DNA of 64,000 nt, taken from the NCBI GenBank assembly GCA_000471925.1, contig CP006667.1, positions 2,108,001 through 2,172,000 on the forward strand, in the 5' to 3' direction. The position numbers were made by a program, and so were the translations under genes. The notes under the pieces were generated by a model, which was given only the letters and a program-made list of their open reading frames with translations, searched no databases and was not told the origin of the DNA. This stretch comes from Ralstonia pickettii DTP0602. Its GTDB lineage: Bacteria; Pseudomonadota; Gammaproteobacteria; Burkholderiales; Burkholderiaceae. Shown here piece by piece: positions 7,618 through 52,307 of the stretch (position 1 is the first letter of the stretch; every line of letters starts with the position of its first letter).

Positions 7618-8026
7618 CGACCATTCGCCGCGAGAAGTTTCACGGGACCGGCACCGGGCGGAACAGTTTCGACCATCGGAAAAAGCGCGCAGTCGGCCGA
7701 TGCCGCCGAAAGTGTAGAAGGTGCGGAAAAGCTGACGTGAGCAACTTCTAATTGCTTGCCGGTCCGCACCATCTAGCATTCTGAGAACGCCCGTGCTCGG
7801 TGCACCGGATCCTGATCCTGACGCGGACAATTGCGGATTCTTTTTCTCCTTTTCGGCGCACTGTTTCATCGATGTAACGAAGTAACACCGCCGCAGATCT
7901 GATCTTGAAAGCCGTACGTTGCGCTTTGTTTTTGGCGCCATATAGTGACTCTGCCTGGCGAGATCAGCGTCTTCTTGACGCCCTGATTGCCGGACCAGTC
8001 AACCCAGGGTACCGTGGGAGCGCGAC
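7618..8026. other. Upstream region of the RHS/terpenoid-like operon
   Basis: No gene seen. It is less GC-rich towards its right end and carries a candidate promoter at 7919-7946 and a ribosome binding site (GGGAG) before the ATG at 8027. Confidence 0.5.
7919..7946 (+). promoter_or_regulatory. Candidate sigma-70 promoter for the 8027-22273 operon
   Basis: TTGCGC (7919-7924) and TATAGT (7941-7946) with a 16-base spacer, placed about 80 bases before the first start codon. It is the best match in the upstream region, but the -35 is weak. Confidence 0.45.
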
Positions 8027-8839
8027 ATGAGACGTGTATTCAAATCGGCAGAGCATAACGAAACGTTCCTCGACGAGGGGGCCGTTCTCGCGCAACTCCT
8101 GACTGAAGAGGAAGTGCGTGCATTGCAGCGCTTTTATTGGAATGAGGCGCCATCCTCGGAACTTGGGTTTCATGCGACGATGTTCAGTGACGATGCGGAA
8201 TATCGCGCGCGCGTCGACGCAAAGATAAAAGAATATCTCGCTCCGCGTCTCGCAATGTTTCTCGATGACTATCGCTGTGTTGTCGGAAATTTTGTCGTTA
8301 AGGAGCATAGCCGTTCGGGAACCGAGGTTTCCCTGCATCAGGACTGGACCTTTGTCGATGAGCGCTTGATGCGCTCGGTCAATGTCTGGTGTCCTCTCAT
8401 CGACACCGACGCCTCGAACGGCGGGCAATCGATCTTCAAAGGCAGCCACCGCATCGTCGACGTTCTGCGTGGGCCCTATTTTCCGAACCCCTTCGTGACG
8501 CTTGCCGAGACGATCGTGGAAAAGTATCTGATGGACGTTCCACTGCGCGCGGGACAGGCGATTATCTACGATCACGCGCTGGTCCATGCTACGCCACCGA
8601 ACCGGAGCCGGCAGACGCGCGTCGCGGCGAACATGGTGCTGGTTCCCAGCGAGGCGCAACTGCTTCACTGCTATCTCGAGCAAGGCGCCCCACGCGCCAG
8701 GCCAGAGCTGTTCGCCGTCGACGACGAGTTTTTCCTTCACAACAAGATCGGCGATCGGCCAGGCGGACGCTTCCTCGGTTATGTCGATAACGCCATTCCG
8801 GCCATCGCCCTCGAACAGTTGCCGCTCGTCCCGGCGTGA
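8027..8839 (+). CDS. Phytanoyl-CoA dioxygenase (PhyH) family protein
   Basis: 270 residues of the Fe(II)/2-oxoglutarate oxygenase fold. The iron triad is visible as His104-x-Asp106 (SLHQDWTF) and a distal His187 in HATPPNRS. A conserved arginine shortly after (about 198) would hold 2-oxoglutarate. Family members hydroxylate or desaturate lipids, terpenoids and small peptides, and the substrate here is unknown. The start is supported by GGGAG upstream. It is the first gene of a tight + strand operon that also encodes prenyltransferase-like, cyclase-like, acyltransferase-like and P450 enzymes, which suggests a tailoring oxidation in a natural-product pathway (inference). Confidence 0.85.
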   Translation: MRRVFKSAEHNETFLDEGAVLAQLLTEEEVRALQRFYWNEAPSSELGFHATMFSDDAEYRARVDAKIKEYLAPRLAMFLDDYRCVVGNFVVKEHSRSGTEVSLHQDWTFVDERLMRSVNVWCPLIDTDASNGGQSIFKGSHRIVDVLRGPYFPNPFVTLAETIVEKYLMDVPLRAGQAIIYDHALVHATPPNRSRQTRVAANMVLVPSEAQLLHCYLEQGAPRARPELFAVDDEFFLHNKIGDRPGGRFLGYVDNAIPAIALEQLPLVPA

Positions 8840-8911
8840 CGCAGTCCAGCCGGCTGTCGCACCCGGCTCACGGGCAAATATCCCAACGTTGCGACAAAGG
8901 AGTCGTACGCA

Positions 8912-9403
8912 ATGACTAACGAGCAAATGGAAAATTTCCTCGCCATCGGCGAGCAGTTGGGGCATAGCCGATCCCACCTCCTGGCGCGCGGTTCACAGAC
9001 TTCAACGGTAACGGTGACAAATATCGAGCAGCTCCGCGCCCTGGTGCGTCCGCGCAACCCGCAACATTTGCAGGACCGCGAAGCCGATATCAGCCAGCGT
9101 TCTGCGGGGAGGCCAAGGACGCTTGCGGAACACATCGAATCGTACCTGTACGGCCAGGGCGAGCTTTCCACCTCGCATGTGAACGCGGCGAACGCCGGAC
9201 TGCCGGTGAACGTGCGCCTTGTGTCCGATGGACTCTTTACGATGCCGCACGGCGAAACCGTGATCGGACCCAGCGCCGATCCCACCGTCTGGAATTACGG
9301 AACGTTGAATTTCTACAGCGATTCCGTTCTGACGGTGAAGAACACGTACTTCACCCTTAACGTGCAGAACCTGGTGATGCAATACGTGGACCCCAAACAG
9401 TAG
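8912..9403 (+). CDS. Unrecognised 163-residue protein
   Basis: The first half is helical and charged. The second half is beta-rich and ends in alternating hydrophobic strands (VWNYGTLNFYSDSVLTVKN). There is no signal peptide, no cysteine and no obvious catalytic motif. The start is well supported by AAAGGAG ten bases upstream of the ATG. It lies 72 bases after the dioxygenase gene and 27 before the glycine-rich protein, so it is surely co-transcribed. A structural or binding partner of the glycine-rich protein or of the RHS protein is possible, but nothing in the sequence proves it. Confidence 0.75.
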   Translation: MTNEQMENFLAIGEQLGHSRSHLLARGSQTSTVTVTNIEQLRALVRPRNPQHLQDREADISQRSAGRPRTLAEHIESYLYGQGELSTSHVNAANAGLPVNVRLVSDGLFTMPHGETVIGPSADPTVWNYGTLNFYSDSVLTVKNTYFTLNVQNLVMQYVDPKQ

Positions 9404-9430
9404 CCAGCACGGATTGAACGGGAGACTCAT

Positions 9431-10141
9431 ATGCCTACCTATGGAATCGGAATCATGGGCGCGGTTCAGAATCCGCCGCCCAAGCCCGCGAAACAACCCC
9501 AGGGAAATACGCCGCCGCAGGCAAAGGAAGGAAAGTGTGTCTGGGGTGATTCGCATTGCATGCAAGACGGGCAGAACGGCGGCGATGGTGCAATGGGCAA
9601 CGCTGGAACGAACGGTACCAACGGCGTCCAGGGCCTTGGCGCGCTTACCGCGCAACTCAATATCACTACCCTGACAGGTTTCCTCGTCGTGGCGTCGCAA
9701 GGCGGTCCCGGGCAGGATGGCGGTCCGGGAGGGGATGGCGCCGATGGCGGAAATGGTGGTCAGGGCGGTAACGGACCCTCGTGCCAGGCCATCGGCTGTA
9801 GCGCGGGCAACGGTGGAAACGGGGCCAACGGCGCCGCCGGCGGGAATGGTGGCAACGGTGGCAATGGCGGCAACGCGCAGAAAGTCACAATCAACATCCC
9901 GTTGGCCGGGGGCGGCACGATTTCCACCAATCCGGTGGCCGGTATTGTCGGGCAAGGTGGTATCGGCGGCCTTGGAGGCAACGTCGGTGCGGGCGGCGAG
10001 CCAGGAACGCACGGGTACGGCGGGCACGACGGGAAGCGGGGTTCGCCGGGCACAACAGCGGGCGCGCGCGGAAATCCGGGCAATCCGGGCACCACGATGG
10101 GCAACATTGGCATCATTGCCATTGTGCCGCCTCGCAGCTGA
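9431..10141 (+). CDS. Glycine-rich collagen-like protein
   Basis: 236 residues. A Pro-rich N-terminus (about 1-35) leads to a short cysteine-bearing patch (KCVWGDSHC). Most of the remainder is Gly-rich, with NGG triplets (about 126-150) and collagen-like GxP/GxN triplets near the end (GSPGTTAGARGNPGNPGTT). Two short hydrophobic beta segments interrupt the repeats. No Sec signal is visible. The start is supported by GGGAG. Such sequences form extended rods or coats, and here the gene sits in the operon of the giant RHS protein. The function is unknown. Confidence 0.75.
   Translation: MPTYGIGIMGAVQNPPPKPAKQPQGNTPPQAKEGKCVWGDSHCMQDGQNGGDGAMGNAGTNGTNGVQGLGALTAQLNITTLTGFLVVASQGGPGQDGGPGGDGADGGNGGQGGNGPSCQAIGCSAGNGGNGANGAAGGNGGNGGNGGNAQKVTINIPLAGGGTISTNPVAGIVGQGGIGGLGGNVGAGGEPGTHGYGGHDGKRGSPGTTAGARGNPGNPGTTMGNIGIIAIVPPRS
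9806..9874 (+). repeat. Short tandem NGG-encoding repeat
   Basis: Degenerate 6-9 base units built on GGCAAC/GGTGGC within the glycine-rich gene. Copy number is likely variable by slippage. Confidence 0.6.
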
Positions 10142-10149
10142 CTGCCGTC

Positions 10150-11205
10150 ATGCCGGTGCTGGGTGCGATCCCGATGGCGCCTTACACGGACCGCATGTTT
10201 CGTGGGCTGTTCGGCGCCGTGGCATCACTTCTACCGGAGGGGGCAGTACATGCGCGCCAGGTCGCGGAGATCCTGCTCCATCATCCTCGGGTCGATGCCG
10301 AAGCGGCGCACCCGCGCTCCGATCTTAACGTCAACGGCTCGCCGCTTCAGTTGCTGTTGTCGGCCAGGCCGGCACGTTGGGAAGCCCGTCTTATCGCAGA
10401 TCCGGCGTTCTATGAAGCGGATCCGCTGGTCCGTTGGCAAAAGAGCCTGGCGGCGCTGGAGGCAACGCTCCGCGCGACCGGCGCTGAAGGACTACGAGAA
10501 CTGGTTCGACTGACGGTGGCGGCTGTCATACCGCAGGATGAGCCGGCGCTCCGCCAGTACCCGACCGGCATGATCCGCCTGGCTGCGGGACTCACTTCGC
10601 GCGGCGCCGCAGTCTATATGGGGGCGCCGCATCGGGTGGACCGCTGGGACGTGGCACGGAGATGGGCCGCTTGCGTGCTCGGCTCGGCGGATCCGGCACA
10701 TGCGCTGATCGGTCGGCTTGAGCCGAATGCGGCAGTCTTCGGCATGGGTGTGGAAGGGGTGAGCCTGCCGCACGCGCGGGCGAAGCTGTACTGGCGCTTG
10801 CGGAAGTCCGTCCCGATCGACGCGTTCGACATGCCTTGGCTTGCCAGCCCGGCGATGACCCGCTTTCTCGCCGCGGTACTTGGCGACGGGAGCATACCCC
10901 TGAACGCGCTCACGTTCTCCGCTGCGTTTGACGTCGCGGATGGCACGCTGACGGATGTAAAGGCCGATGTGTGCGTCGCGAACGCAGGTCTCGGCCTGCG
11001 CGATGCGCTGCATTGTGTCAACGAGCAAGCCGCACTGCTCGGCCTGTCGCCTCGGCCGCTCGACCGATGCAGTGAAGTTCTCGAGCAACATCACGTCGAT
11101 ATCGGCTGTCTGGGGCTGGGTAGCGACAGTCGCGGCACGCACCGCCTCAATATTTACCTGCACCAGCGATACCCGGCCCCCAGGATTCCTCGAACTGACA
11201 GGTAG
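10150..11205 (+). CDS. Probable ABBA-type aromatic prenyltransferase-like protein
   Basis: 351 residues, soluble, no signal. I do not see a single decisive motif, but the pattern fits the ABBA barrel of DMATS/cyanobactin-type prenyltransferases. Paired beta strands end in basic-aromatic patches that in that family grip the diphosphate, for example ARAKLYWRL (about residues 216-224) and THRLNIYLHQ (about 332-341), with a DIGCLGLGSD strand just before the latter. Length fits (300-420). If correct it would attach a prenyl group to an aromatic or peptide acceptor. The neighbouring DxDD cyclase-like, P450 and dioxygenase genes make this plausible. It starts 8 bases after the glycine-rich gene and ends 7 bases before the RHS gene. 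The ATG at 10174 is an alternative start. Confidence 0.4.
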   Translation: MPVLGAIPMAPYTDRMFRGLFGAVASLLPEGAVHARQVAEILLHHPRVDAEAAHPRSDLNVNGSPLQLLLSARPARWEARLIADPAFYEADPLVRWQKSLAALEATLRATGAEGLRELVRLTVAAVIPQDEPALRQYPTGMIRLAAGLTSRGAAVYMGAPHRVDRWDVARRWAACVLGSADPAHALIGRLEPNAAVFGMGVEGVSLPHARAKLYWRLRKSVPIDAFDMPWLASPAMTRFLAAVLGDGSIPLNALTFSAAFDVADGTLTDVKADVCVANAGLGLRDALHCVNEQAALLGLSPRPLDRCSEVLEQHHVDIGCLGLGSDSRGTHRLNIYLHQRYPAPRIPRTDR

Positions 11206-11212
11206 TGACGCC

Positions 11213-14200
11213 ATGAGCATCGAAACATCAGCCAATCCCATCGGCGTCGAGGAAGAATCGACCGTCCCGGAGCTACGGACGTTCCAGACGCTCGATAGTT
11301 CGATCGGACGCATTTCCGAGAACGTCAATCTGTTTCGCGGCGACGTGACCCTTTCGCTGGCATTGCTTACGCTCGCGAATCGAGGCGGACTGGAGGTGGA
11401 TGTCAGCCTGAACTACCAGAGCGACATTCTTTGGGAGGTCAGTACATGGAATCTCGAAAGTCCGACGTCCATCGTTGGCCTGGGCTGGCAGCTGCCCTAC
11501 GAGATGATTCAGCTCGACATCCATAACTCGGTCTCGCCATTCGACGACGCGTACTACCTCAGCAGCACTGACGGATCGCAAAGCCAGCTCCGTCTGACGT
11601 CGCAGACGGTCGATGTGTGGACCTTCGAAGCGGAAGATTTCGACTTCTCGACCATTGTTTACTATCCGAAGAAGGAGATCTGGAAGATCACGGATGCGTC
11701 CGGCCTCACTCGCATCTATGGTGCTGACGTTTCCGCGGGCGATAGTCCGGCAGCGTTGCGCAATGCGATCAAGTGGGGCGGGGTGGACGGCAACTGGACA
11801 GACAGCAGCGTCCAGCTGGGGCAAAGCAATTTCCCGATCAGCTGGAATCTTGCCCGTGTGCGCAATCAATGGGGTGACGAGATCCAGTTCACCTACTCGC
11901 AGTTTCCCGACGATGCGATCCAGATCGGCGGCCCCGGCGGGAACTACTTCACTCGCGCCTCCTATCTGACCAGGATCACCGATCCCGCGGGACGCATCGT
12001 CACGTTCAACTACGCGGCCAAGACCTACAACGACACGATCCGCGAATACGAGGCGCCTCACGTCAGTCCCAACCCGGCGGGACCTTTCGCGTTCCAGGAC
12101 CGCTATGAAACACGGTTCCTCGACAGCATCGACGTCAGCCAGAAGACCGCGGGTGTCGTGCGTGACCTGTTTGCGATTCGCCTTGCCTACCTTGTTGAGA
12201 ATCTCGCCGATCCGGCGACACCGGGGGACAAGCGCTACCTGTACAAGCGGTATCTCGCTGGCATTACCACGGTGAATGCCGATGGCAAGATCCTGCCCGG
12301 TTTGCAGTTCACGTATTACGACGGCTCCCACGCGGCGGGGGACAATGCGGCGGTCCATCGTGGCGCGATCGAGAGCATCACTTTTCCAGATGGCGGCGTT
12401 GCGACCTACAAGTACACCTGGCAGCCGGTGAGCAGCACCTCGCTCGACTGCACCATGCAGAGTTCGGACCCGAACTGGATAGCGGGCGTCCCGCGCTTCT
12501 GGTTCGCGCCGGACTATCTGGTCATCACTTACTACGACGAAGTCAATTCAAACAAGCTGACCGTTGCCGTCTACGACTGGAACGGTCAGTGGCTGGTCTC
12601 CAAGCCCGTCGTCACGAATCTTCCCTACAGCCTCGACCTGGATTCGCTTCAGGTCGTTCTGCAGCAGGAGAATTTCACGGTGTCGTACCGCCTGACTGGC
12701 GCCGGCACGAACGGCGTACTTCAGACCTACGCCGTACGCCGCGCCTTCGGCCAGTACGGGCGATGGGAAGCCGTGCAGTTGACGATGCCGGATCTGCTCG
12801 CGCCCGATGCGTCGTATCAGGTGGTCACCGGCAATGGATTCGTTGTCGCCGCCGCCATGGGTGTCTCGGAGCTCTATCGGTACACCTGGAATCCGCGCTC
12901 GAAGCAGTGGGTGTCCAATCCGCTATATATCTCCACGGTACTCGCCGGCGAATGGACGCTCGGCGCGGCGAACAACTTCTTCACGGTCTGCCAGTATCAG
13001 CCCGGCGCACCGCTATCGTTGTCGTTCTACTACTACGACGTGGCGACGCTCGCATGGAACGACAATCTTCCTCCGCTCGACAGTCTTCCAACCTATGTCT
13101 GGCAGAAGGACCTGCCGAAGCTCTCGTGGAGCCTTTCCGATACCTTTGCGACTGCCACGTTCATCACGAGTGCGAACTCCGTTCAGGAGACCTTCAACTA
13201 CGAAGTCCGCATCTATCCGTGGGACATCCGTTTTCAGGCTTTGCCGTCACCGAATCCGATCGTCGGCACGAATATTCCAGCGAGCACGCTGGAGCCGGTT
13301 GCGGTTTCGCTGGCCGACGGCAGCATGATTGGCAATGTGGGCAATCTGCGCCGGTTTGACGGCATCAGCTGGAATTCGGGCACGCTCGGGCAATTCGGTT
13401 CTGGCACGGACGTTGCGCAGTTTGCGTTTGGGGACGATCTGGCGGTCGGCATCAGCTCGGTCCGGGGCGTAATCGGCGTTTACAACTCCTACCAGGGCAC
13501 GTTCACTCAAGTCTCGGTCGCCGCGGGATCAGGCGGGCCGGCTGCGCCGACCATCAACGCACCCTATGTGACGGTGCGCAACCTGATCTATCAGCAGATG
13601 CCAACCGGCGACCTCAGGCTGCTGAATGAGCAACTGCCGCTGGATGCCGTGTCGATCTCGAATCTGGCGCCGCTGTTTCTCGCCTATGGGCGGGCCGACG
13701 GCAGTTCGTTCGTGTGGACGATGAAGAACGGCGTGCTGGCTGCGAATCCTGTACAGGTGCAAGGCAGCATCTTCCCGAGCAACGATGGGGCGGGTACGGA
13801 CCTGACCGGAGCCTTTGCCTTCGCCACGTTCACCGGCGTGTCATTCAACTCGCCCAGCAGCATTACGCTGCACCGGGTGTTGTTCCAGTCGTATCGCGGG
13901 CCGATGTACAGCTTCGTGGTGTCGTCGGTCGAAGTGACCGATGGCATGGGTGTCACATCGGGGTCCGTATTCGATTACAACACCCCGGGGGCAACCGGAA
14001 CAGTCAGTCCCTATGGCCTGTCGACACAGTTTTCCTGCGTGAAGGCGGCGATGGGCACGACGCAGGCAGGCACCGCTCCGTTTGGCTATTCGATATACCG
14101 CTACTTCGACGGCATGAGTCCGCATCCGGATTCGGATGCCACCCTGTATTCGATGCTGAACGGCCTGCTGCGGGAAGTCGACGGCTACGACAGTCGGGGC

Positions 14201-17200
14201 AATCAGGTGGCGCGTACCTGCAGAAGCTGGGACGTCGTCCGGACCGCCGTCAACGCTGCGACAGGAGCGACCGTCAATCTCATCGGCGGTTACGTACGGA
14301 TGCGTCAGTCGATGGAAACCATTTTCGACGTCAATCCGATGTCATTGCCGGCGCAGCCGCCGCTGGATGTACCCACGACGCTCATCTATAACGACGCAAA
14401 CGGCCAGCCGCGCACGAAGCAGACCCAATACTACGACGGGACGCTGGGCCAGCTTGTCCAGGTTCAGGAGAGCTACACGTTTGCCTATGAGAAGTATCCG
14501 GCGCTGGCCGCGCCGGAAGTCAATCAGATTGCACCGTCGGTCCTCAAGACCGTCACCGTCGGCAACACGGTGACGCAGATCGAAGCGACGACGTGGAGTA
14601 CTGCGAATCCGGGTTCGACCTGGGCGCCCTACCGGCGGTACCGCGCATTATCGGCCAGCGCGACCTTCACGCCGGACAACTGGAACAACACCACCGACCC
14701 CGATCCCCTCGCATGGCGCAGGATGTGGCAGATCACCGCCCGAGACAGGCGGGGAGTGATTGCAGAATACATCGCGGCAGACGGGCGCTCCAACTCGGTG
14801 ATCACCGATACCTCGCAGGAGCTGGTGCTCGCGGTGGCGGGCAACGCGAGCGTCACGAAACAGCAGGTTCTCTCTCTGGGATTCGAGGTCTATGAGGACT
14901 TGACCGGGTGGACGCTGGCAGGTAGCGCATCCAATCTGCCAGGCGCGATCCAGGCCGACGATTCGTTCACAGGATCCCGCGCCCTGGTCATGGGCGGGTC
15001 GGGTGTCGCCAACTCTTCGCCGCTGGCACGGACCCTGACCGTCACGGAAGCCGTGGGCCGTCAATATGTCCTCACCTGCTGGTTCAAGACGCCAGCCGGA
15101 TTTGGAGAGCTTCCGGGTGTCGCCAACTGGACCATTACCGGCACGGCAGCGGGAACCGTGACGGCAGATGTCCCCGACACGGAAGGCGCATGGCAAGCGT
15201 TCTGCGTGCTGTTCGATCTGGCGGCCAATGTTTCGCCACAGAGCATCGCGCTGACGCTGACCAATACCAAAGCGGCAGCAGTCAAAGTCGACGATCTGCG
15301 CTTCTCGCCATCCCGCGCCGGATTTACAGCGAATGTCTATAGCCCGTCGTGGCTCGTGACGACAGCGTCCATGGAGAGCTCCAGCCGGACGACCCGAACC
15401 GTGCGTGGCGACTTTGAGGAGCTGCTTGCCTATGTTGACGCCGAGGAATCGATCGGCACGATCACGGATTCCTATCTCTCGCGCAGGGGAAACCTCGGCA
15501 GGTTCTCGGCCGTGGATCCGAACGCCAGGCTGACGATTACGCCGCGTGAGTTTGCCTTCTATCAGAGCTTCAACATCGGAGATATTTTCGAAGGGGACTG
15601 GAGCAGCACCGCGCAAGCCAAATGGGCAACGGGAAGCGGGAAGCTGATCCACAGCGCCGGCGCACGCGACAGCATCTCCTATACCGGCTATCCGGAAGCG
15701 GCGGCAGGCATCAATGCCTTCGGCGCTTCGATACGGGGAACGCCGTCAGGCGCGGTGACGGCTGCCACCGGAATCGAAATTAGCGCAGGGTTCCAGATTG
15801 CGTGGAGTCCGCAAGCGGCTGGGTGGACGTTGACGGATAGCGCGTCGAACACCACGGTGACGGCGAGCGTTCGCACCTTGCTCGATGTGTCGTTTGCCAC
15901 GTACGCCGCCAATCTGAACGCCAGCGTGCTGCCAACTGATTTCCCGTCGCTTTTCTCGGCTGCCGGATTGCCGCTTGCACCGCTGTCCACCGTCACGGCG
16001 GTCGCGGCCAATGCCCAATGGCGCGTCAGTGACTCCGCGAGCGCGCTGATCTATTACCTGGTGCGTTCGCCATCGGACAACACGAAGATTCAGGTCGTGG
16101 CGTTTCCGCGGCAGTGGACCGTGGTGGTGGTGGACAAGAATATTGCGTTCTTCGCCGATGGCGGTCGCGTGTTGAGTTATCGCGCCCCGACCGCGCCGGA
16201 GCGCAGCTTCACGCTGTTCGCGACAGACGCGATTGGCTTCGATAACGCGCTCTTTTTCGCGGGTCACGAGGTGCAGCTCAGCTACCTGGATGGTGATGCC
16301 CGGGTCCGGCAGGAACTGGTCGTCTCGGGCACGCAGACGGCGCCAAACCAGTGGACCGCGAAGGCCACGATCTACGATGCGCTGGGACGCGACGCCATCC
16401 ATACCCAGGGCGCGACGCTGACGCCGACTGCAGCGACCTGGGGCGGCTACGAAGCGGACCTTGCCAGCTTCGACTGGCCGTCGATGAGGATCACCGGGCT
16501 GGTGAAGACGGACAACCCGCAGTCCGGCGACTATCCATACTGGCGCACGCGCTACGAAGACTCTCCGCTCGGACGCAAGGCGGAACTGGGCCTGCCCGGA
16601 AATGACTATGCGATCAATCCGGGCAACGTGCCCGCGCATACGGCGCGCTTCTATTACGGGCTAAACAACGGCACGCTGGGATACGCAGCGGGAAAATACA
16701 CGCACGCCACGACGGTCGACCCGAATGGCACGACAGGCGTCGAGTTGACGGACGAGCGAAAGTCGACCGTCGCGAAGGCGGTGCTGACGAATCCGGGGGC
16801 CGCCAATCCGCAGTGGAGCGCCACCAAGCAACAATTTGATGCATTCGCCAATCTCGTCACCGCCACCAGTCCGATGGGGTGGAGCGATACCTTCACCTAC
16901 GACTATCTCGGCAATGCAATCACAGCCAACCGGGCCAATGAAGGCCAGACGCGGTCGATGTATGACTCGGCGGGGCGCCTGCGATTCCAGATGGATGCAC
17001 GGGGAGCGGCAGCATCTTCTCCCTATATCAAGTACTGGAAATACGATGCGCTCTCGCGCGTCTTCGAGGAAGGATGCAGCATACAGACGTGGCCCGGTAC
17101 GCTGCCACAGCACGTAAACGACCAGGGCTTTCCGGCGGCGACACCGTCCAACCAGTATGGGTACGACTTCGAAGTCAACGAGGGGAATTCACCTGCGTCG

Positions 17201-19294
17201 ATGATCGCCGCTGGCAAACTGACGCAGATCGTCAGCGCCAATGAAGTGGCCGTGCCGGGGACGACAGATCCATTCTCGGCGACGGAATGCCTCTATTACG
17301 ATATCTGGGCGGAGGTCATCCAGCATTCGATTTCGTTTGCCGGCAACGCGACCCCCTACATAACGAACTACTCGTTCAATTATCAAGGCGAAGTCATCGA
17401 GATTGCGTATCCGGGTCCAACCGCGATGGCGGTGCAGTATGAGCTGGATTCGATCGGGCGTGTCGCGTCGATCGGCGTCGATGGCAACCGGTGCGTCGCG
17501 TACACCTATGACCAGAACGGAAAGGCCGCCACGGAAACGATGTATTCTTCCGCTGGTCAGCAAGTGGGGGCAACGCGAGCGCTGGAGTATGCGCCACCGG
17601 GATGGCTGTCAGACACCGCCGGCACGGCGTTCACGGAGACAACGGTTTATGCACCGGCGAACGAAGGGGCGCCCGGATACTTCGATGGCTCGCCGACCCA
17701 GATCATCACCGCACCGCGCGGTTCCCGCGGTCAAATCACGGCCAGCTACACCTACGATCCACAGGGACGTGTTCAATCGGCGCAGTTCAATGCAGGTACG
17801 GCAAACTCCTTCAACTACGACGCGAATGGCAATATCAAGCAGGTCGGGGCGGCCACCAACTCCTATCTGAGCGCGACGAAAGACCTGGTGCAGTCGACGC
17901 AGGCGCCTGGAAGCCAGCGGACGTACCGGTACGATCCCGCCGGCGAACTGAACGCCCGCATCTCCAGCGATACCCCGGCCGTCGGTCTTGCGCTCTCGTG
18001 GGATGGCTTCCGCGGCCTCCCGCTGCAAGCGGTGGTTGGCCCGGCTGGCACGCAATCGACCGTGAATGTCCGATATGGCCATCGCGGACGCCGTGTGCTG
18101 AAGACGGTCGCAGTGAACGGGAATGCGGCGAGCACGCTCTACTACCTGCGCGGTGCAGGCGACGATGCGCTGGTCGAAGTCAGTTCGTCGGGGGCAGTTA
18201 ATCAGTATGTCGTGGGACCCGCCGGGCTGGTTCACTTCCGGCAGGACGGCACGGAGTTTTTTGTATCGAGGGACCGGCTCGGCTCGGTTCGAGCGGTGCT
18301 GGATCCGTCGGCTAATCTTGTCACCGGACGCGACTACCTGCCGTATGGATTGGACAATGGCGCCGCCCTCGGCACCAATCCGGACATCCTGCGCTATCGG
18401 TATCTGGCCCGCGAACTGGAGGAGACTGGACTCTATGACTTCCGCGCCCGACTGTATGACGCGCTGCAGGCGCGGTTCATGTCGCCCGATCCGCAGCGGC
18501 AGTACCTCAGCCCCTACCTCTATGCGGGCAACAATCCCTTGCTGCTGTCGGACCCGAACGGTAGCTTCGCGTTTATACCGCTGATACTGGCTTTCCTCGC
18601 GGAGGCTGCGGAAATCATCGAGGCGATGACGGTGATCGGTGCCGGCGTCGGGCTCGTGACCGGTGTCGTGCAGGGCGCGGAAGCCATCGCGCAGAACGAT
18701 CTCAGTGGCGCGGAAGCAGCGGGGGTATTCTTTGGCTCCGTGGTGCTCAGTACCATCGGTGGCGGCCTGAGCGGTGGCGCGGGGGCGGTGACGGGTGCAC
18801 TGGTTGAGGGCGTCACGCTGGCCTCGGCCGCGGCGATCGCCGCGGGCGTCGTGACACAGGCCGCGCTTGCCTCCGCCCAGTCGGCCGCGCAAGCGGCACT
18901 GGTGGGTGACGATCCTGGCGACGCAGCCTGGAAAAACGCTATCGCCGGCGGAACATCGTTCCTTGCCGGCAGCCTGGTGACCGCGGGTGTCAGCACCGCG
19001 CTTGAACGAGCCGCTTTCGCGGCAACCTGGAAGGGGACCACCAAGAGCGTGATCACCGGGGCGACGTCCGGGGCGGCGGGGGGCGTGGTCGGCAGCAGCG
19101 TGACATCGGCGCTCAACGATGCGGATGCCAACGTCGCACTCTCCGACGTGTTGCAGGGCATTGCCTTTGGCGTACTGGGAGGCGTCTTTCCGGAAGTGGT
19201 CGCCTACAAGCTTGAAAAGCGGAACTTCCTTATCCAGCAACGGACACAGGCCGCACAACGGCTGGAGTCCAACATCGACCTCTACCCATTATGA
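11213..19294 (+). CDS. Giant RHS/YD-repeat protein with hydrophobic C-terminal domain
   Basis: 2693 residues. An N-terminal YD-type entry region (about 40-400) is followed by a beta-propeller-like segment of aromatic-rich strands (about 415-900), further strand-rich sequence, a carbohydrate-binding-like jelly-roll segment (about 1222-1362), a concanavalin-like segment (about 1450-1675) and classical YD repeats (about 1880-2440). The RHS core ends with the signature YDFRARLYDALQARFMSPDP and a DPNG at 2447-2450. RHS/TcC proteins fold into a hollow cocoon around their C-terminal part. Here that part (2451-2693) is unusually Gly/Ala/Val-rich with glycine-zipper-like stretches and no recognisable nuclease or deaminase. 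No immunity gene follows. There is no signal peptide. The start is the ATG 7 bases after the previous gene; a longer upstream frame overlaps that gene. The next gene overlaps by 4 bases. Confidence 0.85.
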   Translation: MSIETSANPIGVEEESTVPELRTFQTLDSSIGRISENVNLFRGDVTLSLALLTLANRGGLEVDVSLNYQSDILWEVSTWNLESPTSIVGLGWQLPYEMIQLDIHNSVSPFDDAYYLSSTDGSQSQLRLTSQTVDVWTFEAEDFDFSTIVYYPKKEIWKITDASGLTRIYGADVSAGDSPAALRNAIKWGGVDGNWTDSSVQLGQSNFPISWNLARVRNQWGDEIQFTYSQFPDDAIQIGGPGGNYFTRASYLTRITDPAGRIVTFNYAAKTYNDTIREYEAPHVSPNPAGPFAFQDRYETRFLDSIDVSQKTAGVVRDLFAIRLAYLVENLADPATPGDKRYLYKRYLAGITTVNADGKILPGLQFTYYDGSHAAGDNAAVHRGAIESITFPDGGVATYKYTWQPVSSTSLDCTMQSSDPNWIAGVPRFWFAPDYLVITYYDEVNSNKLTVAVYDWNGQWLVSKPVVTNLPYSLDLDSLQVVLQQENFTVSYRLTGAGTNGVLQTYAVRRAFGQYGRWEAVQLTMPDLLAPDASYQVVTGNGFVVAAAMGVSELYRYTWNPRSKQWVSNPLYISTVLAGEWTLGAANNFFTVCQYQPGAPLSLSFYYYDVATLAWNDNLPPLDSLPTYVWQKDLPKLSWSLSDTFATATFITSANSVQETFNYEVRIYPWDIRFQALPSPNPIVGTNIPASTLEPVAVSLADGSMIGNVGNLRRFDGISWNSGTLGQFGSGTDVAQFAFGDDLAVGISSVRGVIGVYNSYQGTFTQVSVAAGSGGPAAPTINAPYVTVRNLIYQQMPTGDLRLLNEQLPLDAVSISNLAPLFLAYGRADGSSFVWTMKNGVLAANPVQVQGSIFPSNDGAGTDLTGAFAFATFTGVSFNSPSSITLHRVLFQSYRGPMYSFVVSSVEVTDGMGVTSGSVFDYNTPGATGTVSPYGLSTQFSCVKAAMGTTQAGTAPFGYSIYRYFDGMSPHPDSDATLYSMLNGLLREVDGYDSRGNQVARTCRSWDVVRTAVNAATGATVNLIGGYVRMRQSMETIFDVNPMSLPAQPPLDVPTTLIYNDANGQPRTKQTQYYDGTLGQLVQVQESYTFAYEKYPALAAPEVNQIAPSVLKTVTVGNTVTQIEATTWSTANPGSTWAPYRRYRALSASATFTPDNWNNTTDPDPLAWRRMWQITARDRRGVIAEYIAADGRSNSVITDTSQELVLAVAGNASVTKQQVLSLGFEVYEDLTGWTLAGSASNLPGAIQADDSFTGSRALVMGGSGVANSSPLARTLTVTEAVGRQYVLTCWFKTPAGFGELPGVANWTITGTAAGTVTADVPDTEGAWQAFCVLFDLAANVSPQSIALTLTNTKAAAVKVDDLRFSPSRAGFTANVYSPSWLVTTASMESSSRTTRTVRGDFEELLAYVDAEESIGTITDSYLSRRGNLGRFSAVDPNARLTITPREFAFYQSFNIGDIFEGDWSSTAQAKWATGSGKLIHSAGARDSISYTGYPEAAAGINAFGASIRGTPSGAVTAATGIEISAGFQIAWSPQAAGWTLTDSASNTTVTASVRTLLDVSFATYAANLNASVLPTDFPSLFSAAGLPLAPLSTVTAVAANAQWRVSDSASALIYYLVRSPSDNTKIQVVAFPRQWTVVVVDKNIAFFADGGRVLSYRAPTAPERSFTLFATDAIGFDNALFFAGHEVQLSYLDGDARVRQELVVSGTQTAPNQWTAKATIYDALGRDAIHTQGATLTPTAATWGGYEADLASFDWPSMRITGLVKTDNPQSGDYPYWRTRYEDSPLGRKAELGLPGNDYAINPGNVPAHTARFYYGLNNGTLGYAAGKYTHATTVDPNGTTGVELTDERKSTVAKAVLTNPGAANPQWSATKQQFDAFANLVTATSPMGWSDTFTYDYLGNAITANRANEGQTRSMYDSAGRLRFQMDARGAAASSPYIKYWKYDALSRVFEEGCSIQTWPGTLPQHVNDQGFPAATPSNQYGYDFEVNEGNSPASMIAAGKLTQIVSANEVAVPGTTDPFSATECLYYDIWAEVIQHSISFAGNATPYITNYSFNYQGEVIEIAYPGPTAMAVQYELDSIGRVASIGVDGNRCVAYTYDQNGKAATETMYSSAGQQVGATRALEYAPPGWLSDTAGTAFTETTVYAPANEGAPGYFDGSPTQIITAPRGSRGQITASYTYDPQGRVQSAQFNAGTANSFNYDANGNIKQVGAATNSYLSATKDLVQSTQAPGSQRTYRYDPAGELNARISSDTPAVGLALSWDGFRGLPLQAVVGPAGTQSTVNVRYGHRGRRVLKTVAVNGNAASTLYYLRGAGDDALVEVSSSGAVNQYVVGPAGLVHFRQDGTEFFVSRDRLGSVRAVLDPSANLVTGRDYLPYGLDNGAALGTNPDILRYRYLARELEETGLYDFRARLYDALQARFMSPDPQRQYLSPYLYAGNNPLLLSDPNGSFAFIPLILAFLAEAAEIIEAMTVIGAGVGLVTGVVQGAEAIAQNDLSGAEAAGVFFGSVVLSTIGGGLSGGAGAVTGALVEGVTLASAAAIAAGVVTQAALASAQSAAQAALVGDDPGDAAWKNAIAGGTSFLAGSLVTAGVSTALERAAFAATWKGTTKSVITGATSGAAGGVVGSSVTSALNDADANVALSDVLQGIAFGVLGGVFPEVVAYKLEKRNFLIQQRTQAAQRLESNIDLYPL

Positions 19295-20226
19295 TCAGCG
19301 CCTGCGAGGCTGCCATCGACAGTGGCGTCGCCTTCCTGCGCGGACGGCAGCGCGAGTGGGGCGAGTTTGCCTGCCACAAGTTCACCAATGCGCAATTGCG
19401 CGGGGAGGGTCGCCTCGATTCCTCGCCGTTCGCCACGACGCTGGTGCTGCACGCGTTGAGCTTCGTCAGGCACGCCTCGATTGATGAGATGCGATCGAAG
19501 GCGATCGGCTTCCTGCTCGATGAACGGGAAGAGCCGGGCGTCTGGCGCTACTGGTCCTCCCGTAACGGCGCACCCATCGACCCCGATCTCGATGACACCT
19601 GCTGCGCTTCCTTTGCACTGAGGCAGGCGGGCGTCGACGCGCAAGGGCTGACGTCCAATGTCCGCTGCATTCTTGACAACCGCCATGGCAGCGGCCTGTT
19701 CAAGACGTGGCTGCGCAACGCCGACGCCGACAACGATGTCGACGGCGCGGTGAATGCGAATGTCCTGCTGTATCTCGGCGAACGTCAGGAGACGATGGCG
19801 GCGCGCGATATCGTCATCGAAGCCATCCTTGCGGATCGCGAAGATGAGGCATCGTGGTACTACACCAGCCCCTTGGCCCTCTACTACATGGTGTCCAGGG
19901 CATGCTTCCACGGCGTGACGGGCTTCCGCACATGCCGTGATGCGGTGATTGAAAAGACAAGGGTCTACGCGCGCGGTGCCTCCCAACAGCCGATGTCCGT
20001 AGCGCTTGCACTCTGCATCCTGGCGAACTACGGCGTGCCGGACGGGGGTATCGCGGCAGGTATCGGATTGCTCCTCCAGCAGCAAGACAAAAAGGGCGCA
20101 TGGGCGAGATCGGCATTCTACAGAGGGCCTGAACCACCGGTAGCGCATTCGGTCTGGTGGGGCTCGGAAGAACTCAGCACGGCGCTGTGCGTCGAGGCGC
20201 TTGCACGCTCGGCGGTGGCACGATGA
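19291..20226 (+). CDS. Small terpene-cyclase / prenyltransferase-repeat protein
   Basis: 311 residues of alpha-barrel repeats as in squalene-hopene cyclases, class II diterpene cyclases and prenyltransferase beta subunits. Asp99-Leu-Asp101-Asp102-Thr matches the DxDD protonation motif of class II cyclases, located where the barrel mouth is expected. Normal class II enzymes carry two barrels (500-700 residues), while this is a single barrel. It could be a stand-alone protonation-initiated cyclase or a non-catalytic relative. Its ATG overlaps the RHS stop by 4 bases (ATGA), which implies coupled translation. It overlaps the acyltransferase gene the same way. Confidence 0.65.
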   Translation: MISACEAAIDSGVAFLRGRQREWGEFACHKFTNAQLRGEGRLDSSPFATTLVLHALSFVRHASIDEMRSKAIGFLLDEREEPGVWRYWSSRNGAPIDPDLDDTCCASFALRQAGVDAQGLTSNVRCILDNRHGSGLFKTWLRNADADNDVDGAVNANVLLYLGERQETMAARDIVIEAILADREDEASWYYTSPLALYYMVSRACFHGVTGFRTCRDAVIEKTRVYARGASQQPMSVALALCILANYGVPDGGIAAGIGLLLQQQDKKGAWARSAFYRGPEPPVAHSVWWGSEELSTALCVEALARSAVAR

Positions 20227-21104
20227 CACGCACGGTGATTGCGTTCTCGGGATGCACGCCAATTCGGCGGGAGCCGATGCGATCCCTGATGCAACGCGAA
20301 GCGCGCTTCGCCGAAACGCTCGCGCGGTGCGATTCGATTCTCGTGGAAGAAGCCGGTTGGAGCATGCGGAAACTGTGGGAGCGGGATGGCGAAGTGACTG
20401 ACCTGCCGAGAAATTTTCCGCTGATGGTCGCTTTCCAGATCGGCCTGTTTGAATTGCTGGTGCATCACGGTATCCGGCCCGATGCGGTGATCGGCATGAG
20501 TTGCGGCGAGGTATCCGCTGCCTATGCCACGGGCGCGATCGGACTTCGCGACGCGCTGCGAATCGCCGTGCATGGCGGGAAGTCGATGGAGCCCGTGGCC
20601 ACGCAATGCCGCATGGCCCTGGTCTGGCTGCCTGCCGCAGCGTGTCGCGCAATGACGGATCGAATCAGCATCGCGGCGATCATGGCGCCGGAACTCACGG
20701 TTATCTCCGGTTTGAAAGAGGACGTGATGTCTGTCAGTCATCGATTGGCGGAAAGACGTGTACCTGTCCATCCTCTTCCCCTGCCATGGGGCGTTCACAC
20801 GCCGCTGCTACCGCAGCGGCATCCGCCGTTCGAGGCATCTGTAGGGAAACTCGCCCCCGGTCCCGCACGATGCCAGGCGTTTTCGACTTCGGGGGGAGAT
20901 TGGACGTCATTTGATTTCGATGCCGCACGATGGTGGCGCATGTTTCGGGCGCCGGTGCTGTTCGCACCCGGAATTCGCGCGTTCGCCGAGCGAGGAATCA
21001 CGACATTCATAGAAGCGGGGCCGTCTTCGACGCTCGATTCGCTGTTGCCGCGATTGGGGGCATCGGCGGTTTCATTCACGGATGCGTTGGCGGTGGGCTC
21101 ATGA
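20223..21104 (+). CDS. Acyltransferase-domain (malonyl-CoA transacylase-like) protein
   Basis: 293 residues matching the AT/FabD fold. The nucleophile elbow reads GMSCGE with Ser93, in place of the usual GHSxGE. The partner His192 lies in VHTPLL, and the C-terminal FIEAGPSSTL matches the usual EIGP motif. The N-terminal GQGxQ motif of typical ATs is altered to SGCTP. The Ser-His dyad is therefore intact, but substrate-pocket residues are unusual. No ketosynthase or carrier protein is encoded nearby, so it may acylate a small molecule or a distant carrier. The start is fixed by the 4-base ATGA overlap with the cyclase-like gene. The longer ATG at 20157 would overlap by 70 bases. Confidence 0.75.
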   Translation: MTRTVIAFSGCTPIRREPMRSLMQREARFAETLARCDSILVEEAGWSMRKLWERDGEVTDLPRNFPLMVAFQIGLFELLVHHGIRPDAVIGMSCGEVSAAYATGAIGLRDALRIAVHGGKSMEPVATQCRMALVWLPAAACRAMTDRISIAAIMAPELTVISGLKEDVMSVSHRLAERRVPVHPLPLPWGVHTPLLPQRHPPFEASVGKLAPGPARCQAFSTSGGDWTSFDFDAARWWRMFRAPVLFAPGIRAFAERGITTFIEAGPSSTLDSLLPRLGASAVSFTDALAVGS

Positions 21105-22273
21105 TGACGGCGCAATCGCTTCGCACATTGCCCGCTCCTTACCGGGAGTACGCCAGGCTGCGGCGAGAGATGCCGGTCTTCCATGATGCTGAAGCCGACG
21201 TCTGGATCGTCAGCCGGTTTGATGATGTGCGGACCGTGCTGCGGGATCATCGGCATTTCAGCTCCTGTGTTCTCGGTCAGGACAGTTTTGAGATCCGGTC
21301 GCCAGCAGACGGCTCTATCCTGCCGAATGAGGAGACGCTCCTGGCATCCGATCCCCCTCGGCATGATGCATTGCGAATGCACGTCGGACGGCTGTTTGCA
21401 CCGAACCGGATTGCGGCGTGCGAGGCGGCTGCTTGTCGTGAACTGGATTGCGTTGTCGGGAAGCTTGTGCAGGGCGATCGATTCGAGATAGTGCAGGATG
21501 TCTGCAAACCGGTTGTCGCTGCCGTGATGGCCTCGGTCTTCGGCCTCGACACGCGCTGGCGTGCATGCGTCGCACAATGGCTGCAAGTCAGCGGCCAGTG
21601 CAATGCGCGTTCCCGGCCCGCATCGCTCAAGGCAAGGTTTGACGCCATGCTCGACGAGATATGGCGCGCCGCGGTGCATTGTCCCGATGCCGGCCTGGGT
21701 ACTTTCATGGCGGCCTGTCACCGTGGCGAAGTCGATGCTCGGCACGTACTGGACCTGACGGTTACGCTGTTGAAAGGCGGGGCGGATACGACGACTTACC
21801 TGGTCGGAAATGTTCTGGCGCTGCTGGCGGAGCAACCCTGCCTGGTGTCCGACATACGCCGCGATGCGGCGTTGATTCCCGCGCTGATCGAGGCATCGCT
21901 GCGGCGTGATTCGCCGGTGCAGCTGACGGTCCGGGTGACGACTGCCGAGGTTGAGCTGGCCGGACACCGCATTCCCGCAAACTCGCGCGTGATGCTGTTG
22001 CTCGGTTCCGCCAATCGCGACGAGGCAGTGTTCGGAAGCGAGGACGAAATTCATCTTGACCGGAGGGCGAAGTCCCATCTCGCCTTCGGGGCGGGTCCGC
22101 ATCGATGCCCGGGCGTGGCGCTGGCAAGGATGCAGGGCAGGGTGATTGTTCAGGCGCTGATGACACGGCTACCCGCTTTCAGGTTGGTGCCGGAGAATGC
22201 CCGGGAGGTTGAGCTCAGAGCCCTGCGTGGCTTCGATCGCATGGACGCGGAATTCCTGGCTTTGCCGCAGTAA
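21101..22273 (+). CDS. Cytochrome P450 with altered ExxR motif
   Basis: 390 residues, soluble bacterial class. The heme loop FGAGPHRCPG gives Cys336 as thiolate ligand. The I-helix reads GGADTT, with the oxygen-activating acid-alcohol pair present. The K-helix reads EASLRRDSPV: aligned on the conserved RxDSPV, the glutamate of ExxR is replaced by alanine, and a glutamate sits one position earlier. Length and order are otherwise normal. It would oxidise the product of the operon using ferredoxin and reductase from elsewhere, as neither is encoded here. The start overlaps the acyltransferase stop (ATGATGA); a second ATG follows immediately at 21104. It is the last gene of the operon. Confidence 0.88.
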   Translation: MMTAQSLRTLPAPYREYARLRREMPVFHDAEADVWIVSRFDDVRTVLRDHRHFSSCVLGQDSFEIRSPADGSILPNEETLLASDPPRHDALRMHVGRLFAPNRIAACEAAACRELDCVVGKLVQGDRFEIVQDVCKPVVAAVMASVFGLDTRWRACVAQWLQVSGQCNARSRPASLKARFDAMLDEIWRAAVHCPDAGLGTFMAACHRGEVDARHVLDLTVTLLKGGADTTTYLVGNVLALLAEQPCLVSDIRRDAALIPALIEASLRRDSPVQLTVRVTTAEVELAGHRIPANSRVMLLLGSANRDEAVFGSEDEIHLDRRAKSHLAFGAGPHRCPGVALARMQGRVIVQALMTRLPAFRLVPENAREVELRALRGFDRMDAEFLALPQ

Positions 22274-22300: not shown

Positions 22301-23077
22301 CTATCGTCCCACGGCTGCCGGCGGTCTCGTCGACGTGCCGCCGGCCGGTTCATACTGCGGCTTTCCCACAGAGCCTGAATCTGTCCGCGATCCCGGGCCA
22401 GGCCACAAATTGATGCTGAAGCCGACCGGCGCTGGACGCGGCTTCCACAGCCGCTGCTCGGCTTCGTCGGCCCAGCGCGACAGGACACGTGCGTCCACGC
22501 GCTGCGGCGCAGGCGGAGCGCGATTTCCTGTGGCTGAAAGCGCAAGGTTCTCTGTGAGCGCAACGGGCAACCATGCTCCACTGACACCCGGTGCACAGAG
22601 CACCCGACCTTGACGAACATAGACGGTGACGGCCCCGGGTGCCGCCGTCTGATAGCCGCCAATCCGGCGCACGCCGTATTCCGTGCCCTCTACTGATGCC
22701 GACACCTCGTTGGTCACCACTTGGCCGCCACCCTCCTTGAGTATGCTCTTGATCCTGGCAAAGAGTTCGCCAACAAACAGCGTGATGGAACCCAGCTGCA
22801 CTCGCGTTGCGCGATTGAGCATGACAGCGCTGCCATCGTCATAGTCGATGACCGCCTGGCCGCCAGCCGTGTCGATGCTGTCACCAGCGTAGACCTCCAT
22901 GCCTGGCGTATTGGCGATCTTCCCTTGGCCCGGGCGTTCTACGGTGACTTCCGGATCGGCATAGAGCAGTATCCCGGTCCGCGGCAGTCCCAGGGCACAA
23001 CCGGCAAGCAGGCTGACGGACAGCACGGTTGTGACGATAACAACAAGCGTGTTGGGACGCTGATCAGTTCCGGTCAT
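22301..23077 (-). CDS. FecR-domain lipoprotein
   Basis: 258 residues. The N-terminal hydrophobic segment ends in the lipobox LAGC with Cys27, so the mature protein is probably lipidated. Residues about 35-170 show the FecR beta-helical pattern (DSIDTAGGQAVIDYDDGS, then SASVEGTEYGVR). The C-terminus is Pro-rich and low complexity. FecR domains sense or relay envelope signals, and this type is often paired with CHASE2 proteins. It overlaps the upstream TIR-CHASE2 gene by 14 bases and has a strong GGAGGT site, so the two products should be made together, with this one at the membrane or in the periplasm. Confidence 0.78.
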   Translation of the reverse strand: MTGTDQRPNTLVVIVTTVLSVSLLAGCALGLPRTGILLYADPEVTVERPGQGKIANTPGMEVYAGDSIDTAGGQAVIDYDDGSAVMLNRATRVQLGSITLFVGELFARIKSILKEGGGQVVTNEVSASVEGTEYGVRRIGGYQTAAPGAVTVYVRQGRVLCAPGVSGAWLPVALTENLALSATGNRAPPAPQRVDARVLSRWADEAEQRLWKPRPAPVGFSINLWPGPGSRTDSGSVGKPQYEPAGGTSTRPPAAVGR

Positions 23078-52193: not shown

Positions 52194-52307
52194 TTGGTCC
52201 TGTGACATGCCGAAAGCCCGCGTGAGGCGCTGTTGGGAATCGCCATCCCGGACTGAAAGCCGTTCGACTCTGGCCTCGACTCGCGAATTTCCCCCGAGGA
52301 GATGGGC

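Follow-up and report, generated by a model that had tools for sequence, protein, structure and literature searches.

A giant RHS protein gene shares a recurrent bacterial gene cassette with terpenoid-type enzymes

Introduction

RHS and Tc shells are carriers of protein toxins, and an operon that places a giant RHS gene among terpenoid-type enzymes raises the question of what such a shell would be doing beside biosynthetic genes. We examined this question in a window of Ralstonia pickettii DTP0602 DNA (the whole stretch analysed, 64,000 nt), for which the original prediction, made from the letters of the sequence, had tied an RHS protein to a set of tailoring enzymes. A search of titles and abstract beginnings in the open-licence literature found no paper that combined RHS proteins with terpenoid or biosynthetic genes.

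Results

Rechecking of open reading frames and coordinates confirmed the predicted run of eight tightly spaced + strand genes at 8027–22273, in the order PhyH, g2, g3, PT, RHS, CYC, AT and P450. The intergenic gaps from PhyH to RHS measure 72, 27, 8 and 7 bp, and three 4-bp ATGA overlaps (RHS/CYC at 19291, CYC/AT at 20223 and AT/P450 at 21101) chain the last three enzymes onto the RHS gene, as had been claimed. For AT and P450 the probable start positions are 20223 and 21101, in preference to the first in-frame starts at 20157 and 20930. With gaps of only 7–72 bp, the block has no room for a further gene such as a short precursor. The translated proteins were assigned to domains with Pfam and NCBIfam profiles (hmmscan), which supported the predicted PhyH Fe(II)/2-oxoglutarate dioxygenase (8027–8839, + strand, 270 aa; PF05721, 1e-17), malonyl/acyl-transferase domain protein AT (20223–21104, + strand, 293 aa, motif GMSCGE; PF00698, 1.4e-37) and cytochrome P450 (21101–22273, + strand, 390 aa; PF00067, 2.1e-16); g2, g3 and PT had no Pfam match at E ≤ 1.

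The gene set was then found as a conserved block elsewhere, whole in three more Cupriavidus genomes (about 91.4% DNA identity over 14.5 kb) and with seven of its eight genes in each of Variovorax gossypii (L042/L043) and a Pseudanabaenales cyanobacterial metagenome-assembled genome (L019/L041). The surroundings of the block differ among the four Cupriavidus genomes, and in all three comparisons conservation ends no more than 16 bp from the P450 stop codon. At the other end, the blastn block begins at window position 7787, 7720 or 7760 (against G003, G017 and G058, respectively), so that it takes in an upstream region (7720–8026, + strand) that is likely a promoter or leader. Within the Cupriavidus block, dN/dS was 0.05–0.28 for seven genes, P450 excluded. 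The Variovorax and cyanobacterial loci share g2, g3, PT::CYC, PhyH, RHS and P450, in an order partly rearranged relative to Cupriavidus; their g2 and g3 were recognised solely by position, composition and weak similarity. RHS and PhyH were both present at six of the seven PT loci with flanks (four Cupriavidus, Variovorax and the cyanobacterium). The seventh, from Limisphaerales, reads g2-g3-PT, with RHS and PhyH absent from a contig that ends 44 bp before g2. The g2 and g3 positions were occupied at every PT locus read.

Because the block is kept whole in Cupriavidus and most of it recurs in two distant lineages, the association of the RHS gene with the enzymes is not one of chance; wherever the context was readable it withstood the refuting condition set with the original prediction, and a coincidental neighbourhood was rejected on the gene content common across phyla. 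That the RHS gene is a passenger carried by accident in a terpenoid gene cluster might be argued from the homologue counts in protein searches with word and length filters, at least 343 for the cyclase vs at least 26 for RHS, whose search also had a candidate cap. We find this reading hardly credible, since seven genes stay together across Burkholderiales and a cyanobacterium at RHS identities of about 30% and with gene order partly changed, and since the ATGA coupling and purifying selection also argue against it.

Three contigs of 5.5–10.4 kb with distant RHS matches (G536 and G846, both weak, and G1045, at 1e-111 with one internal stop) contained no cassette enzyme detectable by tblastn, which, like the homologue counts, speaks against a strict pairing. 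In viral contigs PT gave 194 pattern matches, none confirmed, and in plasmids neither PT nor RHS residues 1–1129 found a match. The L019 PT-cyclase fusion had a single plasmid match, at 30% identity, to its cyclase part, in Deinococcus. A PT search of 377 genomes drawn from G806's phylum found only G806 and a weak match in G1567 (4.9e-5); we dropped the latter, which overlaps an open frame that, read from sequence, resembles PTS enzyme I. Family and order searches scored at most five candidates per genome.

Beyond the conserved block, 2.6 kb past the operon, lies an extracellular contractile injection system (eCIS; 24863–52108, − strand) with eCIS_core, Baseplate_J, Phage_base_V, AAA, Pvc16_N, gp19 tube and sheath domains. 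We considered whether the cassette is cargo of this system, which would inject the RHS protein or the product of the operon. An eCIS lies near the block in two of the four carriers, here and about 0.5 kb upstream in G058, with differing eCIS sequences, and Pvc16_N is enriched in carriers (3/4 vs 7/56 non-carriers; one-sided Fisher 0.013, uncorrected for kinship and shared island hot spots). Against this, carrier G017, a 100% complete genome in about 180 contigs, gave no Pvc16_N match, the match in G003 lies on a different contig from the block, and the window eCIS genes had no tblastn match near the Variovorax or cyanobacterial blocks. The G017 and G003 results led us to reject obligate eCIS cargo, and a payload role in any form appears very unlikely.

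PT and CYC form one open frame in the cyanobacterium (L019) and Variovorax (L042). CYC (19291–20226, + strand) is a 311-aa single-domain protein whose predicted identity as a DxDD cyclase is well supported by motif and profile: it carries DLDDT at residues 99–103, and its family profile matched drimenol synthase (9mhs) at 9.4e-22 over 277 positions and MstE (6sbb) at about 1e-4. Its match to SQHop_cyclase_C (9.8e-5, 22 bits) fell under the cut-off of 26.1. DLDD is the same in all four Cupriavidus copies, and in 22 aligned sequences D99 and D101 were invariant and D102 nearly so; the L042 and L019 cyclases have DADS in place of DLDD. CYC resembles drimenol synthase, MstE and the squalene-hopene cyclases in its class II cyclase domain and DxDD motif, but differs in being a stand-alone domain that lacks a HAD domain and has a prenyltransferase-like protein next to it or fused with it. 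PT (10150–11205, + strand, 351 aa) had been called prenyltransferase-like, a reading, here of the aromatic (indole-type) kind, that is weakly supported at the level of fold. One distant homologue, L018, reaches the cut-off of PF11991 Trp_DMAT, which weakly suggests an ABBA (abba-barrel) prenyltransferase fold. Among A1 members, 0/13 matched Trp_DMAT at E ≤ 1, a PDB profile search returned nothing at E ≤ 10, and the L019 fusion matched cyclase families only.

The remaining enzymes appear suited to tailoring. The PhyH HxD and distal His aligned in all six loci compared, as did the P450 heme motif (FGAGPHRCPG in the window). The P450 ExxR region is atypical, with Ala at the Glu position in all four Cupriavidus copies (EASLRR) and ELLR in Variovorax and the cyanobacterium, and the I-helix Thr pattern is missing from the latter two, which makes P450 activity uncertain. 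A tblastn search for AT found nothing at the Variovorax locus or the cyanobacterial one; in Variovorax a methyltransferase gene follows P450.

Such a set could also be read as making a free small-molecule meroterpenoid, with PT prenylating a small aromatic compound such as free Trp or indole, CYC cyclising the chain, PhyH, P450 and AT tailoring it, and the RHS protein storing, exporting or delivering the compound. DMATS-type enzymes use free Trp as substrate, the enzyme set is typical of tailoring, and the Variovorax methyltransferase, where AT was not found, looks like small-molecule decoration. Even so, we consider a free product somewhat doubtful: the block lacks a scaffold-making synthase, g2 and g3 would have no obvious role despite their presence at every PT locus, and the nearest published PT-cyclase fusion modifies a peptide Trp. 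That fusion is NctPC, described in passages of the review PMC13290415 as an abba-barrel prenyltransferase joined to an MstE-like cyclase that geranylgeranylates and cyclises Trp, with the acceptor given as a ribosomal peptide in the title of that paper's reference 26 (NctPC-type pathways: Hubrich et al., Chem 2024, as cited in PMC13290415).

The two proteins left without a role in a small-molecule pathway were described previously as structural-looking. g2 (8912–9403, + strand, 163 aa), without a Pfam family and assigned by position and a weak pattern, is 14–24% identical to the gene preceding g3 at three distant loci. g3 (9431–10141, + strand) is a 236-aa Gly-rich protein (31% Gly) with exactly one Trp, in a C-x-W motif, in all seven copies (four lineages, with four copies from one genus), and its dN/dS of 0.05–0.08 is the lowest among the seven genes computed. 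The lack of room for a precursor gene and the single conserved Trp make g3 the best candidate terpenoid acceptor, with this Trp as the most likely site. The Trp, with its Cys two residues upstream, could be structural instead, and g3 is far larger than the usual RiPP precursor and has no recognised leader.

Lastly, we turned to the RHS protein (11213–19294, + strand, 2693 aa), a predicted shell with a putative autoprotease core and a hydrophobic tail. It matched TIGR03696 (1.9e-13), RHS_repeat (28.9 bits, cut-off 22) and DUF6443 (7.5e-10). A PF05593 profile search of the window's own genome gave no match, although the protein, once translated, passes the cut-off in hmmscan, and we took the miss as a sensitivity limit. 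The best PDB matches were the mosquito salivary proteins SGS4 (1.8e-38) and SGS1 (1.7e-33). The Variovorax and cyanobacterial RHS proteins are 27–33% identical to it in aligned pieces. The putative core residues, R2421, D2426 and D2447, have counterparts in all 25 full-length RHS proteins (the window protein and 24 others) in an alignment without the truncated P0147 and the 23% match P0161, with the first Asp read by eye; their catalytic identity was taken, by motif, from passages of PMC9935623.

By hydropathy, the C-terminal 243 residues are hydrophobic with three TM-like stretches; 12 other RHS members checked have one to four in their last 300 residues, and such C-terminal stretches occur likewise in the Variovorax and cyanobacterial proteins, whose tails are longer than, and unlike, that of the window. 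Residues 2471–2693 are 35–94% identical among 11 other full-length close-clade members, and the tail had no Pfam match and no recognised toxin domain. The Variovorax tail has weak Gly-zipper Pfam matches, below cut-off. A GHG...GVCYAG pattern in the two distant tails, resembling by eye a His/Cys protease, was dropped as unsupported by Pfam (both) and the PDB (Variovorax). The TcA translocator profile PF18276 found no match in the six genomes searched, and control genomes were silent too.

The premise that this shell carries a toxin fits poorly with these features. The protein shares its RHS core and DUF6443 with polymorphic RHS toxins, but its C-terminus is hydrophobic and conserved in the close clade, and the downstream genes are assigned enzymes, leaving no candidate immunity gene; we therefore rejected a polymorphic toxin. 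The enzymes might instead lipidate the RHS tail or shell, with the freed tail entering a target membrane and g2 and g3 as accessory structural proteins. The ATGA overlap of CYC and RHS would suit this arrangement, as would W2573 in the tail, which is kept in all 12 full-length close-clade members. W2573 was nevertheless rejected as a special acceptor, because 33 of the protein's 54 Trp residues are equally invariant in that clade. The interior of a closed cocoon would hardly be accessible to enzymes, and RHS is absent from the (truncated) Limisphaerales g2-g3-PT contig. We regard lipidation of the RHS protein as quite unlikely.

Discussion

The presence of most of this gene set in unrelated bacteria points to an apparently real, possibly new, system for making and carrying a greasy cargo. 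Our preferred reading, to which we give slightly less than an even chance, is a horizontally moving cassette for a terpenoid-modified ribosomal product and an accompanying RHS shell. Its direct basis is the gene content, the conservation of the block, the PT-CYC fusion in two relatives, most of the catalytic motifs, the conserved single Trp of g3, the RHS core residues and the hydrophobic tail; beyond this, we infer the prenyltransferase fold, acceptor, donor chain length, step order, self-cleavage, product, packaging and target. PT would prenylate an aromatic residue, most likely the C-x-W Trp of g3 with g2 assisting, and the chain added would probably be C15 or C20; CYC would cyclise this still-attached chain through DxDD protonation. 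PhyH and P450 would oxidise the cyclised chain and AT would decorate the terpenoid, a role that a methyltransferase may take in Variovorax. The RHS protein would form a self-cleaving, SGS1/Tc-like cocoon in which a membrane-seeking tail is shielded, and its probable task is to carry the greasy product or to set it free at a membrane. In a more specific form, which we consider unlikely as it stands, the cassette would define a new class of protein-terpenoid hybrids in which a folded g3 bears a polycyclic, oxidised di- or sesquiterpenoid on its conserved Trp and is loaded in or on the self-cleaving RHS cocoon, whose tail would insert into a membrane.

Compared by description, the cassette resembles NctPC-type RiPP-terpenoid hybrids in pairing a prenyltransferase-like protein with an MstE-like cyclase, in the same operon in Cupriavidus and fused in the two relatives, a fusion that fits the published NctPC description; a Trp acceptor is plausible here too. 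It differs in having no space inside the block for a short precursor gene, its candidate acceptor being the 236-aa g3, and in including a giant RHS gene in the conserved block. The RHS protein, in turn, resembles SGS1 and SGS4 (8fjp, 9on3) and the Tc-toxin BC cocoons in its RHS shell, the Arg and two Asp of the autoprotease, and a hydrophobic C-terminal tail with TM-like stretches; SGS1 is described in passages of PMC9935623 as a Tc-like shell enclosing predicted TM helices. Unlike SGS1, it is bacterial, tied to terpenoid enzymes and about 700 residues shorter.

The combination of an RHS protein with a prenyltransferase-cyclase pair suggests a biosynthetic use of cocoons, in which a greasy terpenoid-modified protein or compound is shielded. 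For experiment, the cassette offers a single-Trp acceptor that can be tested, an enzymatic step that takes two genes, and a shell that is soluble and has a hydrophobic tail. It may also take the cyclisation of terpenes on ribosomally made products further than the peptides described so far, and it may inform the origin of SGS-like RHS shells. If a g3-terpenoid carried by RHS is the true reading, the RHS shell would be a carrier of a biosynthetic product and not of a toxin, with the SGS proteins of mosquitoes as its distant relatives.

Gene content and probable transfer of the operon

All eight plus-strand genes of the operon claimed in the original prediction were found as stated, with their coordinates and spacing checked: PhyH (8027–8839), g2 (8912–9403), the Gly-rich protein g3 (9431–10141), the prenyltransferase-like protein PT (10150–11205), RHS (11213–19294), the class II terpene cyclase CYC (19291–20226), the acyltransferase AT (likely start 20223, to 21104) and P450 (likely start 21101, to 22273). 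The open reading frames are separated by 72, 27, 8 and 7 bp, followed by three ATGA overlaps. No Pfam match was obtained for g2, g3 or PT at E ≤ 1, and the RHS gene was not recovered by a whole-genome search with PF05593; the translated RHS protein exceeds the cut-off of that family.

In a sample of 100 related genomes, 4 carried PT; the three carriers other than the window's genome belong to the 59 same-genus genomes. The same four genomes carried it among 398 from the family, and only the window's own genome among 399 from the order (the three samples overlap, and no more than five candidates were scored for each genome in the family and order searches). In the other carriers, all Cupriavidus (G003; G017, taken as C. 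numazuensis; G058, taken as C. laharis), the eight genes stood in unchanged order with 85–96% protein identity, and one blastn alignment per carrier spanned the block (~14.5 kb, ~91.4% identity); its start lies 240–307 bp ahead of PhyH and its end falls 16 bp short of the P450 stop, at it, or 11 bp past it. The flanks were unlike one another among carriers, and when 38 window genes were compared, the only further matches near the block were to eCIS (extracellular contractile injection system) genes in G058 and, in G003, to a distant porin. The block thus lies in different surroundings, and it has probably moved as a cassette. Across seven block genes (P450 left out), dN/dS was 0.05–0.28, with the minimum in g3.

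Linkage of RHS and enzymes in distant genomes

Scanning genomes with the PT alignment gave relatives of 32–39% identity in a Limisphaerales MAG, a Pseudanabaenales cyanobacterium MAG and Variovorax gossypii. The cyanobacterial order is g2, g3, a PT::cyclase fusion, PhyH, RHS (2830 aa) and P450, and Variovorax has the same order followed by a methyltransferase. AT had no match at either locus; both hold the Cupriavidus gene set minus AT in altered order, Cupriavidus having PhyH first and CYC after RHS. At the distant loci g2 and g3 were assigned by position, composition and weak similarity (14–24% identity for g2), and the RHS proteins of Variovorax and the cyanobacterium shared 27–33% identity with the window RHS within aligned pieces. 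The Limisphaerales locus has g2, g3 and PT, then a glycosyltransferase and a methyltransferase; neither RHS nor PhyH had a match on its contig, which stops 44 bp before g2. RHS was thus present at six of the seven PT loci with readable flanks, Limisphaerales being the exception. The claimed link between RHS and the enzymes proved real, and the linkage is an old one.

Two results speak against strict pairing: protein searches restricted by word, length and number of candidates returned at least 343 cyclase homologues versus at least 26 RHS homologues, and three distant RHS matches lay on short contigs with no visible cassette enzyme. Five longest-contig sizes (32015, 27113, 19714, 16345 and 116284) were equal between RHS matches and PT or CYC matches, in a comparison covering 26 RHS matches, 14 PT matches and the 120 listed of 343 CYC matches; this agreement, of size only, suggests further loci with RHS and enzymes beyond those read.

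Cassette enzymes and a candidate acceptor

Over 277 positions, the CYC family profile aligned with drimenol synthase (9.4e-22); squalene-hopene cyclase was matched at 3e-14, and MstE weakly (~1e-4). DLDDT was kept in all four Cupriavidus copies, and we assign CYC by these profiles as a single-domain class II terpene cyclase. PT we read as an indole-type ABBA prenyltransferase: one distant homologue reached the Trp_DMAT cut-off, and the K-x-Y and R-x-N-x-Y motifs, which we take to resemble those of DMATS, were invariant in the PT alignment. Against this reading, Trp_DMAT was matched by none of the 13 alignment members, the cyanobacterial fusion matched cyclase families only, and PT had no match in PDB.

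Because PT and cyclase are fused in two relatives, PT and then CYC would act in sequence, as the fusion argues. The closest known system, likened by description only, is NctPC, with which the cassette shares a fused PT-cyclase (in those two relatives). According to a 2026 review, NctPC joins an abba-barrel prenyltransferase and an MstE-like cyclase in one fusion, which geranylgeranylates a tryptophan and cyclises the chain (PMC13290415).

PhyH kept HxD and the distal His in all six loci, AT kept GMSCGE in all four Cupriavidus copies, and the P450 heme Cys motif was kept in six of six. Outside the heme motif the putative P450 is atypical, and its activity is thus uncertain: in the four Cupriavidus copies Ala stands opposite the ExxR Glu (EASLRR), and the copies of Variovorax and the cyanobacterium keep ExxR but lack the I-helix Thr pattern. 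This oddity and the altered gene order leave the PT-CYC-g3-RHS core untouched.

The gaps inside the block are too small for a separate precursor gene. In all seven copies of g3 compared (four nearly identical ones from Cupriavidus, plus Variovorax, the cyanobacterium and Limisphaerales) there is a single Trp with a Cys two residues earlier, the rest being mostly Gly-rich repeats; g2, examined in four copies, has one to three Trp, of which none is shared by all four. This pattern makes g3 a candidate acceptor of the terpenoid, although the conserved Trp may instead be a structural residue. The model we rate best is a ribosomal product that bears a terpenoid modification and has RHS as its carrier, the main rival being a free meroterpenoid inside the RHS shell. 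Our searches of an open-licence library, which covers only a minority of subscription journals, turned up no description of RHS combined with terpenoid enzymes.

The neighbouring eCIS

A complete-looking eCIS cluster (24863–52108, minus strand; sheath, tube, Pvc16, AAA ATPase, baseplate and eCIS_core with OmpA) lies 2.6 kb beyond P450, and in G058 a different eCIS lies ~0.5 kb from the opposite side of the block. Pvc16_N occurred in 10 of 60 genus genomes, three of the four carriers versus seven of the other 56 (one-sided Fisher 0.013, genomes treated as independent of relatedness). Because Pvc16_N had no match in G017 and lay on a contig other than the block's in G003, an eCIS can be no more than an optional partner. 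Between operon and eCIS are a TIR-CHASE2 protein (23064–24761, minus strand) and an adjoining FecR-domain protein (22301–23077). Past the sheath end, a TIR protein with BTRD1 repeats, polyglycine hydrolase-like (52302–53825), and a CHAT-domain protein (55136–58318), both on the plus strand, are possible eCIS-associated effectors or signalling proteins.

The RHS protein

The best solved relatives of the window RHS were the mosquito RHS proteins SGS4 (1.8e-38) and SGS1 (1.7e-33). Across an alignment of 25 full-length proteins, from which the truncated P0147 and the 23% match P0161 were excluded, every member kept a core Arg and two Asp, the first Asp being scored by eye. By a motif match to the description in PMC9935623, these are putative autoprotease residues. 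Beyond the second Asp lies a 243-residue tail in which hydropathy shows three TM-like stretches; it had no Pfam match and is conserved within the close clade. In SGS1, a Tc-like shell is reported to enclose predicted TM helices (PMC9935623), and by analogy the window RHS may shield a membrane-inserting tail and perhaps also the lipophilic product.

The Variovorax and cyanobacterial RHS tails are longer than the window tail and different from it. They have in common a GHG...GVCYAG pattern (Variovorax L043, 5223–5864, plus strand; cyanobacterial L041, 1287–1892, minus strand) that by eye is His/Cys protease-like; Pfam supported this reading for neither tail, and the Variovorax tail had no PDB match. 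Another relative, P0151 (26% identity, 2726 aa), represents 444 member sequences on contigs of up to 5.1 Mb.

Mosquito SGS proteins are considered to derive from bacterial endosymbionts (PMC9935623), and the family of the window RHS may be relevant to their origin.
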